Part shown: positions 1,027 to 22,600 of the stretch, piece after piece
How positions within the stretch are numbered: the first letter of the stretch is position 1
Layout: every line of letters begins with the position of its first letter
Source of the DNA: a virus
Virus record (IMG/VR): IMGVR_UViG_3300025889_000703
Coordinates: 1-28,583 of that record
Strand: one strand, 5' to 3'
DNA: 28,583 nucleotides
Translations under genes and position numbers: made by a program
Notes under the pieces: model-generated
What the model saw: only the letters and a program-made list of their open reading frames with translations
What the model was told of the DNA's origin: nothing
The model's database searches: none

Positions 1027-1452
1027 TTACTTCAAAAGTTCCAACCGAAGCATATGCCACTGCATCTGAGCAAGGTTACAGGCCCACACGGGCTCCACGT
1101 CAACACCCACCAGGACTAAATCCCCCGCTTGCTCCCCACGGTACAACCGCAACTCAGCCGTCTTACTCGAAGTCGTTCCCGGTGGGTGATACTGCACCAA
1201 AACAAAGGTCGGAACCCTTAGGTCGGCATGTTTCAAGTGAAAAGCCACTTGATGAGGACTCAAGGCTACCTTACGGCCACGCTTCGTCACTTTTAGCTCT
1301 ACCATGACAAAGCGGGGTTGTTGGGGGCCCAAGGCTATCAAGCAATCAGGAACACCTAAACCCACCCGAGATTCAAGACGGGTGATATGACTATTCGGTA
1401 GGTTTTCCTTCAGTCTCTTGTACAGGGCCGCTTCCGGCTTTATTGTTGACAT
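1027..1452 (-). CDS. VRR-NUC (PD-(D/E)XK) nuclease
   Basis: A 141-aa stand-alone VRR-NUC domain. An N-terminal helix carries PEAALYKRL; the core motif is RVGLGVPDCLI (D36) followed by FVMVELKV, giving E52-x-K54 of the PD-(D/E)XK fold; the following LSPHQVAFH (Q68) is also typical. VRR-NUC proteins of phages act on branched or structured DNA in a Holliday-junction resolvase-like way, which fits a gene beside the small terminase: branches must be removed before packaging. The ATG lies inside the 3' end of the terminase gene (62-nt overlap in another frame) behind AGAGGA. The fold assignment is secure; the exact DNA substrate is inferred. Confidence 0.85.
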   Translation of the reverse strand: MSTIKPEAALYKRLKENLPNSHITRLESRVGLGVPDCLIALGPQQPRFVMVELKVTKRGRKVALSPHQVAFHLKHADLRVPTFVLVQYHPPGTTSSKTAELRLYRGEQAGDLVLVGVDVEPVWACNLAQMQWHMLRLELLK

Positions 1453-2086
1453 CGATGTCCTCTAAGTCGGGGAAGGCTTCCAAAGCTTTACGGGCTTCAA
1501 ACGGTGGGTCCTTCTCAATGGTCACGTCTTTCGCTTCCACGTCCAAAATTGCCTGTGGTGGTGGCCCACCGTACAAGCTCTTGATCTCGTTTAACTTACG
1601 TTCCACTTCTTCCCTGCTCATGGAATCAATCGTGCCGTGCCTGATTTCCTTACGTTCCACGTAAATGGTCCCTAAAGCCTGCCCACGGCGATATTCAGCT
1701 TGCACTGCGGCTCCATATGCACCGGCGGCCAAAGCGGCATCACGGATCGTCTGGAGATCCTTCATGTGCCTTTCATACGTAATGCCATACTTTGCGGCGA
1801 GCTCAGCCCGATATTCTTGGATTGCCGCACATACGTGTGGATTTAAATCAGGGTTTGTAAGCTTCCACGCTACCGTCTTCGCTGACTGTGGGGTATATCC
1901 AGCCCGAAGAGCCGCCTCTTTCATCGTGACGGCCCCGTCCCCACCTACAAGCTCTTGAACGAAGGTCCACTCTTTTTGAGTCAGACGCTTACGTTGCTTT
2001 TTCAGAGGGGCTACCTTCCGATTGGTTCTCTCCTGCATCTTATTAGGCAATACCGGGGGAACGTGCCAAACGTCTTTGTAAGCCAT
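1391..2086 (-). CDS. terS: Terminase small subunit
   Basis: A 231-aa protein that would recognise phage DNA and hand it to the large terminase for packaging. After a basic N-terminus (KKQRKRLTQKEW), residues 36-90 form the helix-turn-helix region typical of small terminases, with MKEAALRAGYTPQSAKTVAW. A long helical segment (about 90-172) that should form the oligomer ring follows, then a Pro-rich acidic tail. I start it at the ATG at 2086, behind GGAGGA; a TTG 24 nt upstream would extend the frame but has no clear binding site. The start shares one base with the stop of the upstream gene (TAATG), so translation is probably coupled. The large subunit is not in the window and is expected to the left. 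Confidence 0.85.
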   Translation of the reverse strand: MAYKDVWHVPPVLPNKMQERTNRKVAPLKKQRKRLTQKEWTFVQELVGGDGAVTMKEAALRAGYTPQSAKTVAWKLTNPDLNPHVCAAIQEYRAELAAKYGITYERHMKDLQTIRDAALAAGAYGAAVQAEYRRGQALGTIYVERKEIRHGTIDSMSREEVERKLNEIKSLYGGPPPQAILDVEAKDVTIEKDPPFEARKALEAFPDLEDIDVNNKAGSGPVQETEGKPTE

Positions 2087-2379
2087 TAAATAGTCCTCCG
2101 ACAAACCCAATAACCAGAATCAATGTCTTGCTTCAGAGAAAAGCGTCTTGTTGGATTCTTTCGGTTAAAGGTCTTCAAAGCGTTCCTAGCGGCGTAAGCG
2201 TGGTCTTTGCCTTCCAACAGGAAAAAGTCCCCGACGATCATTGCTTTAAACGGATAACGAGCCCTTCCGGTCAGCAGGTTGTACCTCGCCACATGCCTCT
2301 TGGGCCGTATAAAGGTGTTTCCAGCAAGGGCTCGGGCCTTGTCTTCTGCTTGTTTTTCAAAGGTTTCGAGGGCACTCAT
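2086..2379 (-). CDS. DUF7303-like small phage protein
   Basis: A 97-aa protein starting MSALETFEKQAEDKARALAG. The C-terminal two thirds (RYPFKAMIVGDFFLLEGKD, then a helix AARNALKTFNRKNPTRR and a final YWVCRRTI) has the layout of a widespread small phage domain: a strand, an Asp-Phe-Phe strand, a helix over the variable part, and a closing W-x-x-R-x-I strand. The function of that family is unknown; a nucleic-acid role is a guess. The ATG stands 13 nt after AAGGGGG, rather far, and an upstream TTG at 2427 is the alternative start. It is the first gene leftward of the repeat-rich region. Confidence 0.7.
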   Translation of the reverse strand: MSALETFEKQAEDKARALAGNTFIRPKRHVARYNLLTGRARYPFKAMIVGDFFLLEGKDHAYAARNALKTFNRKNPTRRFSLKQDIDSGYWVCRRTI

Positions 2380-2449
2380 GAACAGGATATTACCCCCTTC
2401 CAACACCCTGTGCAACAGGGGAGCCAAGGAAACAATACATCAACGACCC

Positions 2450-2700
2450 CTATTAAGGGTGTTTCTCGAATGAAATTTTTTTTTTTCATAAAAATGACCT
2501 GTGCGCGATTTTCGTAAGATTTTGCTCCTATGGGTGTTTTTTACGACACCTCTATACACCTCTATACACCACTCATTTTTCGTGGTGTAACGACTTAAGT
2601 CCTTGATCCGTGGTCCTTTATCCACTCCACTACACTCAAGTGGGTGTTTTTTGTTCAAAAAAAAAATTATTTTTTTTCATTCCAGAAACACCCCTAATAG
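2450..2700. repeat. Pair of outward-facing 26-nt near-identical inverted elements
   Basis: Left copy 2450-2475 and right copy 2675-2700 are reverse complements of each other at 24 of 26 positions. Read outward from the middle, each is an A/T-rich run, then TTTCATTC, one variable base, AGAAACACCC, a pyrimidine, and TAATAG. The left copy therefore points to the terminase block and the right copy to the GNAT/HNH block. This is what divergent promoters or paired regulator sites would look like. No gene lies between the copies, so they are not the ends of a gene-bearing element. Confidence 0.65.
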
Positions 2701-2782
2701 ATGTGTGCACTGTATAGCCCCAAAAAAGTGGTGTACTGTGGTGTATAGTCCCCCCGCCCAACACCCTTCAAACCCCAACCCA

Positions 2783-2811
2783 TTGTATTTATGTAACATT
2801 TTCTGTACTAC
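2783..2811 (+). promoter_or_regulatory. Possible sigma70-type promoter for GNAT and HNH genes
   Basis: TTGTAT at 2783-2788 and TACTAC at 2806-2811 are separated by 17 nt, in the direction of the plus-strand GNAT gene about 90 nt away. Both boxes are weak matches to TTGACA and TATAAT. The right-hand outward element at 2675-2700 is an alternative start point. Confidence 0.3.
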
Positions 2812-2869
2812 ACTTCCCGTTATGGTCCGTTTCCGGTTAGTACACCACTCGTTACACCACACCACTCGT

Positions 2870-2893
2870 TACACCACTCCTCCGAGTGGTGTA
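2870..2893 (+). promoter_or_regulatory. 10-bp hairpin just before the GNAT start
   Basis: TACACCACTC (2870-2879), a four-base loop CTCC and GAGTGGTGTA (2884-2893) form a perfect inverted repeat ending nine bases before the ATG at 2903. It is built from two opposed copies of the local repeat. It could be a dyad operator in DNA or a hairpin in the leader RNA; there is no T-run after it, so it is not a terminator. No clear ribosome binding site lies between hairpin and ATG. Confidence 0.6.
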
Positions 2894-2902
2894 TTGCCCG
2901 TA

Positions 2903-3289
2903 ATGCGTGTATTGCAGCTTGCTTGTCTGCCGCACGACGAGCCAATCTTTCCTGACAACGGTTGGTGGTGGCTGGGGCATTCTCTGGACAACAACCAAGC
3001 GGTGGCCTTTGGCATCCTGGAACCCTCCCAGCAGTGGCTGGACACGGCCTACCTCTCCCGAGCGGGGGTACTACCAGCTTGGCGTGGTCAAGGGCTCCAG
3101 CGCCGTCTTATTGCCCTTCGTGAGCGTCTTGCGCGCCGGCAGGGCTTTGTCTGGATGATTTCTGACACCACGGACAATGTCCCGAGCTCCAACAACCTGA
3201 TTAAAGCCGGCTACAAGCTCATAGAGCCCTCCGCCCCGTGGGCCAATAGTGAGTCACTCTATTGGACTAAAAAGCTCGTGAAGGCCTGA
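2903..3289 (+). CDS. GNAT-family N-acetyltransferase
   Basis: A 128-aa protein that should transfer an acetyl group from acetyl-CoA to an amine. Motif A is clear: strand LSRAGVLPAW followed by R61-GQGLQ66, the acetyl-CoA pyrophosphate loop, and a helix. Motif B follows with SSNNLIKAGYKLIEPS, and the last strand is SLYWTKKL. It is short for a GNAT, close to a minimal domain. I use the ATG at 2903; TTG at 2894 and GTG at 2888 are in frame but inside or touching the hairpin. It lies on the opposite strand from its neighbours and is followed four bases later by the HNH gene. The substrate (a protein, a toxin or a small molecule of the host) cannot be told from sequence. Confidence 0.85.
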   Translation: MRVLQLACLPHDEPIFPDNGWWWLGHSLDNNQAVAFGILEPSQQWLDTAYLSRAGVLPAWRGQGLQRRLIALRERLARRQGFVWMISDTTDNVPSSNNLIKAGYKLIEPSAPWANSESLYWTKKLVKA

Positions 3290-3293
3290 TTAA

Positions 3294-3692
3294 GTGCCCT
3301 ACAAGGACCCTGCCAAGCGCGAGGCCATGGCCAAGGTGTACAAGGCCCGTTGGTATCAAAAGAACAAGCTGGTGACGAAAGAGCGCACGAGGGCCAACAA
3401 ACGCAAGCAAAAGGTGGTCTGGGATGCGTTCAAGGCCTCCCAGGCTTGCAGCCACTGCGGGACGACACACCCCTCGGGTGTAATCATTGATTTTCACCAT
3501 GTGGACCGGACGGACAAGCAGTCTGTCCATTTCTTGATCAAGAACTACCGGTTTGCGGCGGCGATGGAGGAGATTAAAAAGTGCATCCCCTTGTGCTCAA
3601 ACTGCCACCGGATTTTGCACTGGGAGGAACGTGAAACCTATAAGCGCGAAAAAAAGAGAAAAAAGGCACTTAAAGGCGCCAAAAAAGCGTGA
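3294..3692 (+). CDS. HNH endonuclease
   Basis: A 132-aa, very basic protein with a zinc-supported HNH (beta-beta-alpha-metal) core: C52-x2-C55 (CSHC), the catalytic strand IIDFHHVD with H68/H69, then C101-x2-C104-H105 (CSNCHRILH). The N-terminus (KDPAKREAMAKVYKARWYQ) and Lys-rich C-terminus are typical of phage HNH proteins, some of which are free-standing homing endonucleases and some of which take part in packaging. It starts with GTG four bases after the GNAT stop, with GAAGG upstream. The plus-strand pair GNAT-HNH may be a homing cassette or a morphogenesis helper; position near terS allows either. Confidence 0.88.
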   Translation: MPYKDPAKREAMAKVYKARWYQKNKLVTKERTRANKRKQKVVWDAFKASQACSHCGTTHPSGVIIDFHHVDRTDKQSVHFLIKNYRFAAAMEEIKKCIPLCSNCHRILHWEERETYKREKKRKKALKGAKKA

Positions 3693-17484: not shown

Positions 17485-18945
17485 ATGGAAGACAAATACC
17501 TAGCCACATTTCCGTTTAAAAACAAACCCTTCTTGCATCAGAAGGCTTACCTGCAACGGTTCTACAAAGAGCCTATCTGTGCGCTTTTTGCCGACACCGG
17601 TACGGGCAAGAGCTTCATGTTGATTAACAACATTGCGATGCTCTACGACCAGGGCAAGATTAATGGGGCTTTGATCGTGGCGCCTAAGGGCGTGTACCGT
17701 AACTGGTTCAAGCTTGAGATCCCCAAGCACATGCCCGATCACGTGGTGTACCGCATGGCGATCTGGAACCCAAGCCCGAAGAAGGCGGAGGCCGAGGCCC
17801 TTGATTCGATGTTCGGGGTCACAGAAGACTTGAAGGTGCTTGTGATGAACATTGAAGCGTTTAGCACGGACAAGGGGACGAAGTTTGCGCAGCGGTTCTT
17901 GAATGCGCACAACTCGTTTTTTGCTGTGGATGAAAGCACCACGATCAAAGGGCATACGGCCAAGCGCACGAAGAATACGATCAAGTCGGCAAAGCTTGCC
18001 AAGTACCGACGGATTGCTACGGGCTCGCCTGTGACCAAGGCCCCGATGGACCTGTACTCGCAGTGCGAGTTTTTGTCAGACGATTGCCTGGGGTTGCCGA
18101 GTTACTACTCCTTCTTGGCCCGTTATGCGGTGACCGTGGAGCGCAGTGTTGGCACCCACACGTTTAAGCAGGTGGTGGGCTACCGCAGGCTTGATGAGTT
18201 GCATGAGAAGCTTTCCAAGTTTTCTTTCCGTGTGCGCAAAGACGAGTGCTTTGATCTGCCAGAGAAGACCTTCTTGCGCAGGGAAGTGGAGCTCACGCCA
18301 GAGCAGAAACGAGCGTATGACCAGATGGTCTTGATGGCGCTTGCCACCTTTGACAAGGGGATGACGTCCACCACGAATGCCCTGACCCAGATCATGCGGC
18401 TGCAGCAGATCGTCTGTGGTCACATTACGTTGGACAACAAGGAGGTTGTGCCCCTGAAGAACAACCGGATCGCAGAGCTCATGTCTGCCATTGAAGAGTC
18501 GGACGGCAAGATCATCATCTGGGCCTACTTCAGGCACAGCATTGAAGAGATCAAACTTACTCTGCAAAAAGAATACGGCATGAACGCCGTAGCGACGTAT
18601 TTTGGAGACACTCCGGACGAGGAGCGGTCAGATATTGTGGAGAGGTTCCAGGACATGGATAACGAGCTGCGCTTTTTTATTGGCCAGCCACGGACCGGAG
18701 GCTATGGTTTGACCTTGACAGCGGCGCATACAATGATTTACTACGCCAACGGCTACGACTTGGAGACCCGGCTGCAGTCCGAAGCACGTATTGATCGCTA
18801 CGGCCAGACCCACAAGATGACATACATTGACCTATTTACACCCAATACCGTGGACGAGAAGATTGTCGACGCCTTGGTGAACAAGATGGACATTGCCAAC
18901 ACCATCCTGAAAGAAAACCCACGAGATTGGATTAAAAATGATTGA
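17485..18945 (+). CDS. SNF2-like superfamily 2 helicase/translocase
   Basis: 486 aa. Motifs in order: Q-type LHQK (17-20), Walker A ADTGTGKS (36-43), Ia LIVAPKGVYRNW (63-74), II VDES (148-151), III ATGSPVTKAPMDLY (178-191), V RTGGYGLTLTAA (403-414) and VI QSEARIDRYGQ (431-441) followed by TYIDLFTPNTVDEKI, typical of the SNF2/Rad54 branch. No DNA-binding or nuclease domain is fused. SNF2-type phage proteins probably move along duplex DNA to remodel forks or protein roadblocks. It is on the opposite strand from the replication operon and overlaps the exonuclease gene by 8 nt. Motif II ends Asp-Glu-Ser, a variation found in phage members. Confidence 0.93.
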   Translation: MEDKYLATFPFKNKPFLHQKAYLQRFYKEPICALFADTGTGKSFMLINNIAMLYDQGKINGALIVAPKGVYRNWFKLEIPKHMPDHVVYRMAIWNPSPKKAEAEALDSMFGVTEDLKVLVMNIEAFSTDKGTKFAQRFLNAHNSFFAVDESTTIKGHTAKRTKNTIKSAKLAKYRRIATGSPVTKAPMDLYSQCEFLSDDCLGLPSYYSFLARYAVTVERSVGTHTFKQVVGYRRLDELHEKLSKFSFRVRKDECFDLPEKTFLRREVELTPEQKRAYDQMVLMALATFDKGMTSTTNALTQIMRLQQIVCGHITLDNKEVVPLKNNRIAELMSAIEESDGKIIIWAYFRHSIEEIKLTLQKEYGMNAVATYFGDTPDEERSDIVERFQDMDNELRFFIGQPRTGGYGLTLTAAHTMIYYANGYDLETRLQSEARIDRYGQTHKMTYIDLFTPNTVDEKIVDALVNKMDIANTILKENPRDWIKND

Positions 18946-19642: not shown

Positions 19643-22600
19643 AGCATCTGTCGGCTTGACGCTGGCGCTGCTGGTCCTGGCCCTTGGGCCGTGGGTTGTG
19701 GGGCTGGGGCTACTGGTCCTGGCTGAGCTGCTTGTGCAGAAGACATGAAGGGTAGGCCCGTGGTCGGTGGGGCAGGAGGCAGTTGGCGTAAGAGCTTTGA
19801 TGCCGGAACTCCGGTGGTTGGGCTCATAAGCATTTCTTCAACTTCTTCGTCCGTAGGCGGGGGATCGCTTTGATCAAAGTAGTTCATTGTTGCAACGCTA
19901 AGGGGTGCCAAGCCGTTTCGTTTCATTGACTCAATCACGCGCTTTCCAATGTTAAAGAAGGAGCGTTGGTCGTAGGCTTTGCCTCTTTCCAAAAGAGTTG
20001 CCATGAAGGCGGGGTCTTTAGCAGCCCTCTCTAAAACAGCCCTTGTCTTACCAAGGGGCATGTCTTCAAAGAGCTTTTTAAAGGTGCGAACACCGGCGCC
20101 GGCAGCAACAAGGGCTCCTGGTCCAGAGGGCGCGATCTGTGAGGTGACGTTGGTGCCCGCTAAACGAATAGCCAGGTCTTCAAGGGGATTAATGCTGTTT
20201 AGCGTTTCGACAAAACGCCGTGTACCCATTGAATCCTGTGTCTTTTGAATGGTGTCCACGATTTTTTTAAGGCGTGTCATTTCTGCTACATCAACTAAAC
20301 CATTTTTTACCATCATCTCAGAAAGCGACGGTTGGCCAGGTTTAATGGGGCTAAACATAGCACTCTTAAAAGCAGCCGGATCAAAAACAGCCGTGTCCCT
20401 CGCAGGGCCTGCTGGCTCAGGTGCCGCTTTCATAAAGGCCCAGTCGTACAAAGACGAGGCTAAACCACGTTTAGGTGCGTCCCCCAGACCTGTTTTTTGA
20501 AGAACCTTTTTGTTCGTCGCAAGATTAATCAACCGTTGCAGTTGTGTAACGGGCTCGCCTGAAGTAAACGCGTTTGATACAACACGAGTGATGTTTTCCG
20601 GAGAATTTAAGACTGCAGCAAAAGCCGACTTGTCTTGCAAAGACTTGTTAAGCGCGCTTGTGCTATCCAGCACATAACGGAAGTACTCTTCTGCCTTGTT
20701 TACGTTTTGAAGATCGTTGTAAAGCGTTGGATGAAAGCGCTTGAGAATAGCGTCGTTTTGACGTAAAAAGTTTTGGTACTTTGCCGTATCAAAGCTTAGG
20801 CGCTTGGCAAGCTGTCCCGGTTGTGCAGGAACTTCCCTGAACAATCCCCCAATGTCTTGCTCGAATATCTTCTTAAAAGCGTCGTCCACCGATAAAACAT
20901 AGGCGCTGTTTTTGACTTGATCGGCTAAAGGCTTGAGTTCACGAATAGTAGCCTCATCTCCATTTTGAACAGCCGTAGCCCACTTTTGCCGCATTGCAGC
21001 GGCATCCTTGGGATTGTCCACTACCTTTGCCCAAGAGGCGAGTTCAACCGCATCTTCCAGTTCAGCCATTCGCAAGGAGGTACGATCGTTTGCTCTGTTT
21101 AACGTTTGAAAAAACCCATCCACCAAAAGCTCTGGGGGATTCTTTTGAGCACCTGACCGTTTGGAAGCCGTTATTTCAACAGGGAATGCGCGAGTAAAAT
21201 AGTCGTTGAGTGTCCTGGAGAAGGTTATAGCTTCTTTGTACTCAGGAATATTAAAGGCTTCCAAGTCTTTTAGAGCAGCTTGCGCTAACCGGCCGTAAAC
21301 CTCTGCGTCACCTCTCTCTGACCCCGCACGAGCATCTCGGGCAAGACGTAACATGTCCGACCGAAAAGTTTGAAGTTTGCCGGGTGGCAACATCTTTATC
21401 TTTTCGTTTATTTCGGATGTTGTTTCCGGTGGGAGCACCTTAGTTTCTTGGAACTGTCGTGACAAAGTTGCACCGTTATAGGTGTTTACCATGTCCTCAT
21501 CAAGCCCAAGCTCTTTAAGGCGACGCAAAGTATCCGCATTTAAAACTGTTTCGCCGCCAGACATTCCCCTGTCTTCTAAAATGTCCAGCACTTCGTACAT
21601 TAGAGAGGAAGGCTTTTGTTGTTTGAACGTGACCATCTTTGCACGGGTCGCGGCCCAATCTTTCTTAGGCACATTCAAACGTATTAAGTCTTCGTTAGTA
21701 AGCTCTCTGTACCCTGCTGCTTTTGCTTTTTCGTACAAAACCCTTTCAAAGGCGCGCATGTCGGAAAGCGCGTCAATAACAGGTTTTTGAAGCTGCTGTC
21801 CAATTGCTGCACGATATTCAGGTGTATCGGGCGTAAGGCCCTTTGGAAGAGGGTCAATCTTGGCCTGAGCTAATTTTAGCCGTGTGGAAATAAGGTCCCG
21901 GAAATAATCCGACTGAAACTTTGCCGCTTGCAATAGCGCATTGGGATCCTGCGTCTGTGTTAAAGCATTAACAAGCTCTTTGTGGGCCAACATATAAGCA
22001 CGACCCTTGCTTTCAACATCGCCACCAAATTGTGCGCTTTGTTTAGCTAAGGACGCTTCAAAGGCCGACAAGACAGCACTGCCTGATTTTTGTGCGGCAG
22101 TGGGCAAAGCGTCTCCGCGCAAACCAGATATTTCGGGCGACCGAAGGGCAGCCAGGACCTTTTGTGGGTCTTCTTTGAACGTTTCTAGGACGTAGGGATC
22201 GTTAAAAATTGTAAAAAGACGCTTAGCTGCTCGGGACTCTGCTTTGCCTTCACCAAACAACTCTTTAAAAGAATTTTTGACGTTCCTTGCTTCACCAAAG
22301 TTGGATACGATTGTTCGGAAAGGAAAGAAAGCTCCACCACCAAACTCCAAAGCAAACTTTGCTACAGGATCTCCAGGGTATGCAGCTTCTGCAATTCCAC
22401 CCCCAACGCCAGACCCAGTAGCCCCCAAAGCTTCTACCGTGTAAAAAAGCTTTGGTGTTTCACGAGCTGACTTTCCATAAGCAGTAAGCAATCGTGAAGC
22501 CCAGTTGTCCACCATTTCGGGAAGAAAACGAACACTTCCCACAAACGGAAGCGCTCCTCCTGTGGTTTTTGCGCCTTCCCTAAAAGGATCCAGGTCTGGA

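Follow-up and report, generated by a model that had tools for sequence, protein, structure and literature searches.

The cluster of TACACCAC repeats in the window (the whole stretch of DNA analyzed here, a 28,583-nucleotide fragment of a virus record) is best read as one clade's form of a conserved cis-site upstream of the small terminase gene, terS, and this site is most likely the replication origin of the phage group, a reading to which we give about even odds. As judged from sequence comparison, the repeats belong to a single-copy, putatively cis-acting DNA site that is kept upstream of terS by about forty uncultured aquatic phage lineages. Among the possible functions of the site, DNA packaging ranks second after replication initiation, and regulation of transcription ranks third.

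The nearest named relative of the window phage is Phage DSL-LC04, whose 61.5-kb genome derives from a lake metagenome assembly and whose authors proposed the family 'Dishuiviridae' (PMC10611076); pelagiphages of the HTVC023P type are distant relatives. The genes of the group include a primase with an AEP domain, a UvrD-type helicase, PolA, an SNF2 helicase, and Pam3-gp32/33/34-like proteins, and homologs of the AEP primase, the UvrD-type helicase, and PolA were found in 13/13 near-complete genomes. One contig, L309, which carries a full site and the terS of the group, was binned into a Verrucomicrobia MAG.

Repeat cluster and site architecture in the window

An exact-match count over the whole window placed eight copies of TACACCAC in 2565-2893, four per strand, where 0.51 copies are expected per 28.6 kb and shuffled sequences contained three at most (n = 100). 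Together with two copies bearing one mismatch, this bears out the original prediction of about nine copies in both orientations. Outside the cluster, the other 28 kb hold a single exact copy, at 17743 and inside an ORF, and no 8-mer was seen more than four times per 340 bp when the whole window (60 shuffles) or the intergenic region (2000 shuffles) was randomized. The cluster had also been described as AT-rich, as lying between divergent gene blocks, and as unlike DnaA boxes. All three descriptions hold: the GC content of 2428-2905 is 41.6%, the region separates the leftward terS block from the rightward GNAT/HNH genes, and the closest approach to the DnaA box TTATNCACA, the sequence CTATACACC, matches it at 7/9 positions. 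Because this partial match is confined to the window and most relatives carry CGTAAT boxes instead, we rejected a DnaA-box origin.

The repeats turned out to be real and, at the same time, only one part of a larger and more structured site. Two inverted-repeat arms, A/T tracts, and a GC core had been overlooked in the original prediction, and with the short repeats (hereafter boxes) these elements form the conserved unit (Table 1). The arms of the window match as reverse complements at 24 of 26 positions, with a score of 24.4, whereas 12 shuffles reached at most 15.0 (z = 9.3). A profile HMM of the site, built from 17 regions, matched the window on the minus strand at 2700-2629 (E = 5e-4) and, weakly, at 2507-2441 (E = 2.2), in the expected order and on the expected strand. 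The GC core of the window is degenerate; at the corresponding position, L018, from the same clade, carries the complete GGGGTGCGCGCGCG. At the far end of the cluster, a perfect palindrome, TACACCACTC-CTCC-GAGTGGTGTA, occupies 2870-2893 and ends 9 bp ahead of the GNAT start codon.

Table 1. Features of the site and its neighboring genes, in window positions
Feature	Position	Strand	Basis or remark
Conserved-site core	2441..2705	-, oriented as terS	Profile HMM; boxes flank it
terS-proximal inverted-repeat arm, CTATTAAGGGTGTTTCTCGAATGAAA	2450..2475		Pairs with distal arm
Distal inverted-repeat arm, TTTCATTCCAGAAACACCCCTAATAG	2675..2700		Pairs with proximal arm
T tract inside proximal arm	2476..2486		Sequence reading; A/T tracts at the same place in aligned lineages
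A/T tract inside distal arm	2655..2677		Sequence reading; A/T tracts at the same place in aligned lineages
Degenerate GC core, AAAATCGCGCACAGGTC on terS strand	2496..2512	-	Counterpart of GGGGTGCGCGCGCG, by alignment with L018
Box cluster I, between arms	2545..2589		ACACCTC, TACACCTC, TACACCAC at 10-bp steps, then inverted TACACCAC
Box cluster II, outside distal arm	2728..2745	-	Two TACACCAC 10 bp apart
Box cluster III	2841..2893		2841, 2853, (2858), 2870 on +; 2886 on -
Exact TACACCAC copies	2565, 2841, 2853, 2870	+
Exact TACACCAC copies	2582, 2728, 2738, 2886	-
One-mismatch copies	2555; 2858		TACACCTC at 2555; CACACCAC at 2858
terS (small terminase)	1391..2110	-	First conserved gene downstream of site; PHROG 51, E = 1.4e-9
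Small ORF, YPF..GD..WVCRR family	2089..2379	-	Between site and terS
GNAT acetyltransferase gene	2903..3289	+	Pfam PF00583, E = 2.4e-7; accessory divergent neighbor

A search for structured RNAs in Rfam gave no match at E ≤ 1, and a tRNA scan of DSL-LC04 and the window stretch found none. Motifs resembling GGACCACGG are present in most of the related intergenic regions, with 76 in 42 regions where mononucleotide shuffles predict 7.8; in the window, one lies at 2597-2616 and about 27 others lie elsewhere.

The terS assignment in Table 1 is accompanied by a match to Pfam Terminase_2 (PF03592), the G1P family that goes with an SPP1-type packaging site, at E = 1.4e-4 and 23.0 bits, below the curated cut-off of 26.1 bits. 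The ORF for the YPF..GD..WVCRR small protein is found in most relatives and missing in some, and we rejected this protein as an essential partner of the site since it is absent where the site persists. DSL-LC04 has two tandem copies of this gene at 19963-20474. On the other side, the rightward GNAT/HNH pair (2903-3692) occurs elsewhere beside other genes without the site, and relatives that have the pair but no nearby terS show no array, so we likewise rejected these genes as the owners of the repeats. The pair looks like a movable accessory unit; it is present without the site in L103 and L104, and in L103 it directly adjoins a gene for a PolA-type polymerase.

Conservation upstream of terS in related phages

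The original prediction proposed searching relatives for the repeat and its position, and both the repeat family and its place proved to be kept. In L011-L014 and L016-L020, TACACCAC itself occupies the corresponding position upstream of terS. More widely, the relatives share two inverted arms separated by about 200 bp, A/T tracts within the arms, boxes spaced 9-10 bp apart, and the GC core GGGGTGCGCGCGCG. Inverted-repeat pairs enclosing a loop of about 130-280 bp were detected in the terS upstream regions of many of 42 lineages, with z values against shuffles of 9 in the window, 22 in L056, 18 in L114, 18 in L169, and 14 in L118, among others. The arm sequences vary between lineages, and the two arms within one genome match each other. 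Boxes lie both between and outside the arms and are of the CGTAAT type in most lineages and of the CGCAAT or GGTGTA type in others; in many lineages, three direct copies at the 9-10-bp spacing follow the distal A/T tract. The TACACC box of the window (GGTGTA on the other strand) is probably a variant of the CGTAAT-type unit, because L222 has GGTGTAagtGGTGTAagGGTGTA in place of the CGTAATaaaCGTAATgaCGTAAT of L199 and L056 carries both types.

Among 2.9 million viral contigs, the pattern GGGGTGCGCGCGCG-N1-8-TTTTT of the GC core occurred in 71, all of them from this phage group (71/71). In 67 of these 71 exact-core contigs, terS begins 116-660 bp downstream of the core and on its strand, the other four contigs ending first. 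Allowing up to one mismatch, each genome that has the core has it once. In 257 Gb of cellular genomes, 11 contigs contained an exact match, about the number expected by chance, and only L309 contained a clear full profile site.

Each of the 13 near-complete genomes gave one match to the site profile (E ≤ 4e-15), in every case upstream of terS and on its strand; since several of these genomes had been used to build the profile, the match at the site is partly by construction, which does not apply to the absence of a second clear site. Matches were obtained in 151 of 159 terS upstream regions (E < 1e-3), and over all fetched loci, 230 of 236 matches shared the strand of terS and were no more than 1.5 kb away from it. 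The exceptions were four contigs that end before terS and L086/L157, which are the same contig. There, at 25-142, the match lies opposite to the terS strand at the end of the contig, an end that may be inverted or chimeric. In the pelagiphages HTVC023P, HTVC027P, and 023Pt_psg01, we found no comparable array or arms near terS.

Strand composition and the function of the site

The original prediction held that the cluster could mark an origin and that a turn of the GC skew there would support this. As in iteron-type origins, short repeats are clustered at a fixed site with an AT-rich stretch beside them (in the aligned lineages, both arms contain A/T tracts). The skew turned near the site in most genomes: with correction for gene strand, the cumulative GC-skew minimum of 9 of the 13 genomes fell upstream of the site anchor, at a distance of 308-663 bp. 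The 13 genomes do not represent independent lineages, since G007, G008, G009, and G016 are closely related, as are G001 and G002. In G005, G011, G013, and DSL-LC04, the minimum was not at the site, and the skew of DSL-LC04 taken as a single genome gave no support for an origin. Raw skew over 12 kb was higher on the terS side in 13/13 genomes. At third codon positions, the GC skew (GC3 skew) of terS-strand genes was greater in the first quarter downstream of the site than in the second quarter in 12/12 cases, and that of terS was greater than that of polA in 14/14 records.

Because the site is also the start of the late genes, we sought effects independent of transcription and examined the SNF2 helicase gene, which lies on the strand opposite to terS in 12 of 13 comparisons. 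Its coding-sense GC3 skew exceeded that of nearby replication genes on the terS strand in 13/13 comparisons (P = 1.2e-4), which fits a leading/lagging-strand bias that turns at the site. The remaining genome, G013, has the gene on the terS strand, and there the skew is negative; in this genome (represented by the contig of L197), unlike the others of the set, both the SNF2 helicase and the nuclease genes are on the terS strand. Pairs of homologs that have switched strand agreed with a replication-strand bias in 17 of 19 cases. Some of the minus-strand genes in the right half may be spurious ORFs. For terS-strand genes to the right and left of the antipode, we saw no significant difference (P = 0.09, 7/12), and a terminus opposite the site is unsupported. 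We take the skew as support and not as proof because the boundary between early and late genes coincides with the site, and transcription could be the cause of part of the skew.

If the site is an origin, an initiator, presumably encoded by the phage, would bind the paired arms and the short boxes, whose spacing is close to one helical turn; after melting of the flanking A/T tracts, the AEP-type primase, SF1 helicase, and PolA-type polymerase of the phage would load there. We infer initiator binding, melting, and the start of replication at this position from the anatomy and the strand composition described above. We recognized no initiator among the encoded proteins and identified no gp38-like gene. 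There is no particular reason for an origin to be linked tightly to terS and not to the replication genes.

This linkage is what a packaging (pac) site would account for, one from which, after recognition of the region by terminase and a first cut by TerL near the GC core, headful packaging would proceed. We regard this as possible and clearly less probable than an origin. The single copy upstream of terS and on its strand agrees with the location of SPP1-type pac, which covers the terS promoters and the start of the gene and has direct repeats (PMC6316719, PMC4737164). In some lineages terS follows the site with no gene between; the gene on the other side varies between lineages (an observation that depends partly on a crude, weak ORF clustering); and the scattered internal positions of the site in near-complete contigs are compatible with permuted genomes. 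A predicted pac site of ICP1 similarly lies in ORF-less space near a putative rolling-circle origin (PMC7145576). Against these points, the whole gene backbone is syntenic, making the terS linkage weaker evidence than it appears, and contig ends do not pile up at the site. The helix-turn-helix region of TerS differs strongly among lineages that share the CGTAAT box (L054, L111, and L114), with the caveat that the TerS of SF6 likewise reads little sequence. Nor does packaging predict a change in strand composition that is independent of gene direction. Rather doubtful, in our view, is a combination in which one module serves as both replication origin and packaging start, coupled beside terS, with a box specificity that drifts while the architecture stays.

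It is unlikely that the site primarily controls transcription, with divergent promoters in the arms (their outer ends TATA-like) and boxes acting as operators for a phage regulator that switches the late operon containing terS and the short divergent operon. Divergent genes do flank the region in the window and in the relatives that form group 2, the arms are mutually inverted with outer ends of CTATAG, TAATAG, TTTAAG, or TATACT, and group-2 relatives have TTGACT-N17-TATACT directed toward terS outside the arm. The position of the window palindrome just before the GNAT gene points the same way. However, the complete DSL-LC04 genome has exactly two copies of the arm motif, which is thus not a general promoter class, the sigma-70 consensus was not found in the window stretch, and a promoter leaves unexplained a 14-bp GC core that is common to several lineages. 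Promoters of the T7 type are disfavored by the same twofold occurrence of the arm motif and by the failure to find a PF00940 RNA polymerase in 8 related records, in a search whose control also matched nowhere. An invertible promoter did not agree with the one orientation, upstream of terS, of the 230 matches noted above. It is quite possible that some elements of the region, for instance the palindrome, have a regulatory role alongside another function.

We consider it very improbable that the site is a physical end of the genome, either cos or a direct terminal repeat. A GC-rich core adjoining terS is reminiscent of lambda cosN, and in L202 and L229, which belong to one clade, contigs start 10 bp before the core. 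Yet the site is internal in near-complete contigs, many contigs span it, and contig ends (which are not virion ends) scatter across hundreds of bp without converging on one base, all of which disfavors an end of the lambda cos or terminal-repeat type. A replication origin is the best single guess, as the original prediction had suggested, and packaging and regulatory roles are also possible.

Relation to known phage sites

The site falls within the known kinds of phage cis-sites and is not a new category. The closest parallel for an origin is SPP1, whose oriL and oriR consist of direct repeats beside an AT-rich stretch and are served by phage-encoded replication proteins (PMC6316719); this organization of boxes and AT-rich DNA is one reason that we counted the parallel in favor of an origin. 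SPP1 has two origins that are bound by gp38, with a DnaB-type helicase, whereas the phages here have one site, an AEP primase, and an SF1 helicase, and the portion of PMC6316719 available describes no SPP1 counterpart to the inverted arms and GC core. The pac sites of SPP1 and SF6 resemble the site in lying on the promoter side of terS and in having direct repeats and AT runs beside GC (PMC4737164); in contrast, the site described here lies entirely upstream of the gene, in many cases separated from it by another gene, and includes a long pair of inverted repeats. ICP1 is an unrelated large phage, and the likeness of its predicted pac site near a putative replication start (PMC7145576) is one of location. 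The primase-polymerase of NrS-1, an AEP-family phage enzyme, starts DNA synthesis at TTTGGTTA or GTG (PMC8718748), a recognition motif that differs from the motifs of the site.

In the open literature that we searched, there is no description of an origin or packaging site for this common group of uncultured aquatic phages. Since one short site per genome can be located with the profile, origin and packaging functions become testable from existing metagenome reads, with no need for a cultured host. The arms, which differ between lineages and yet match within a genome, offer a handle for finding the protein that co-evolves with them.
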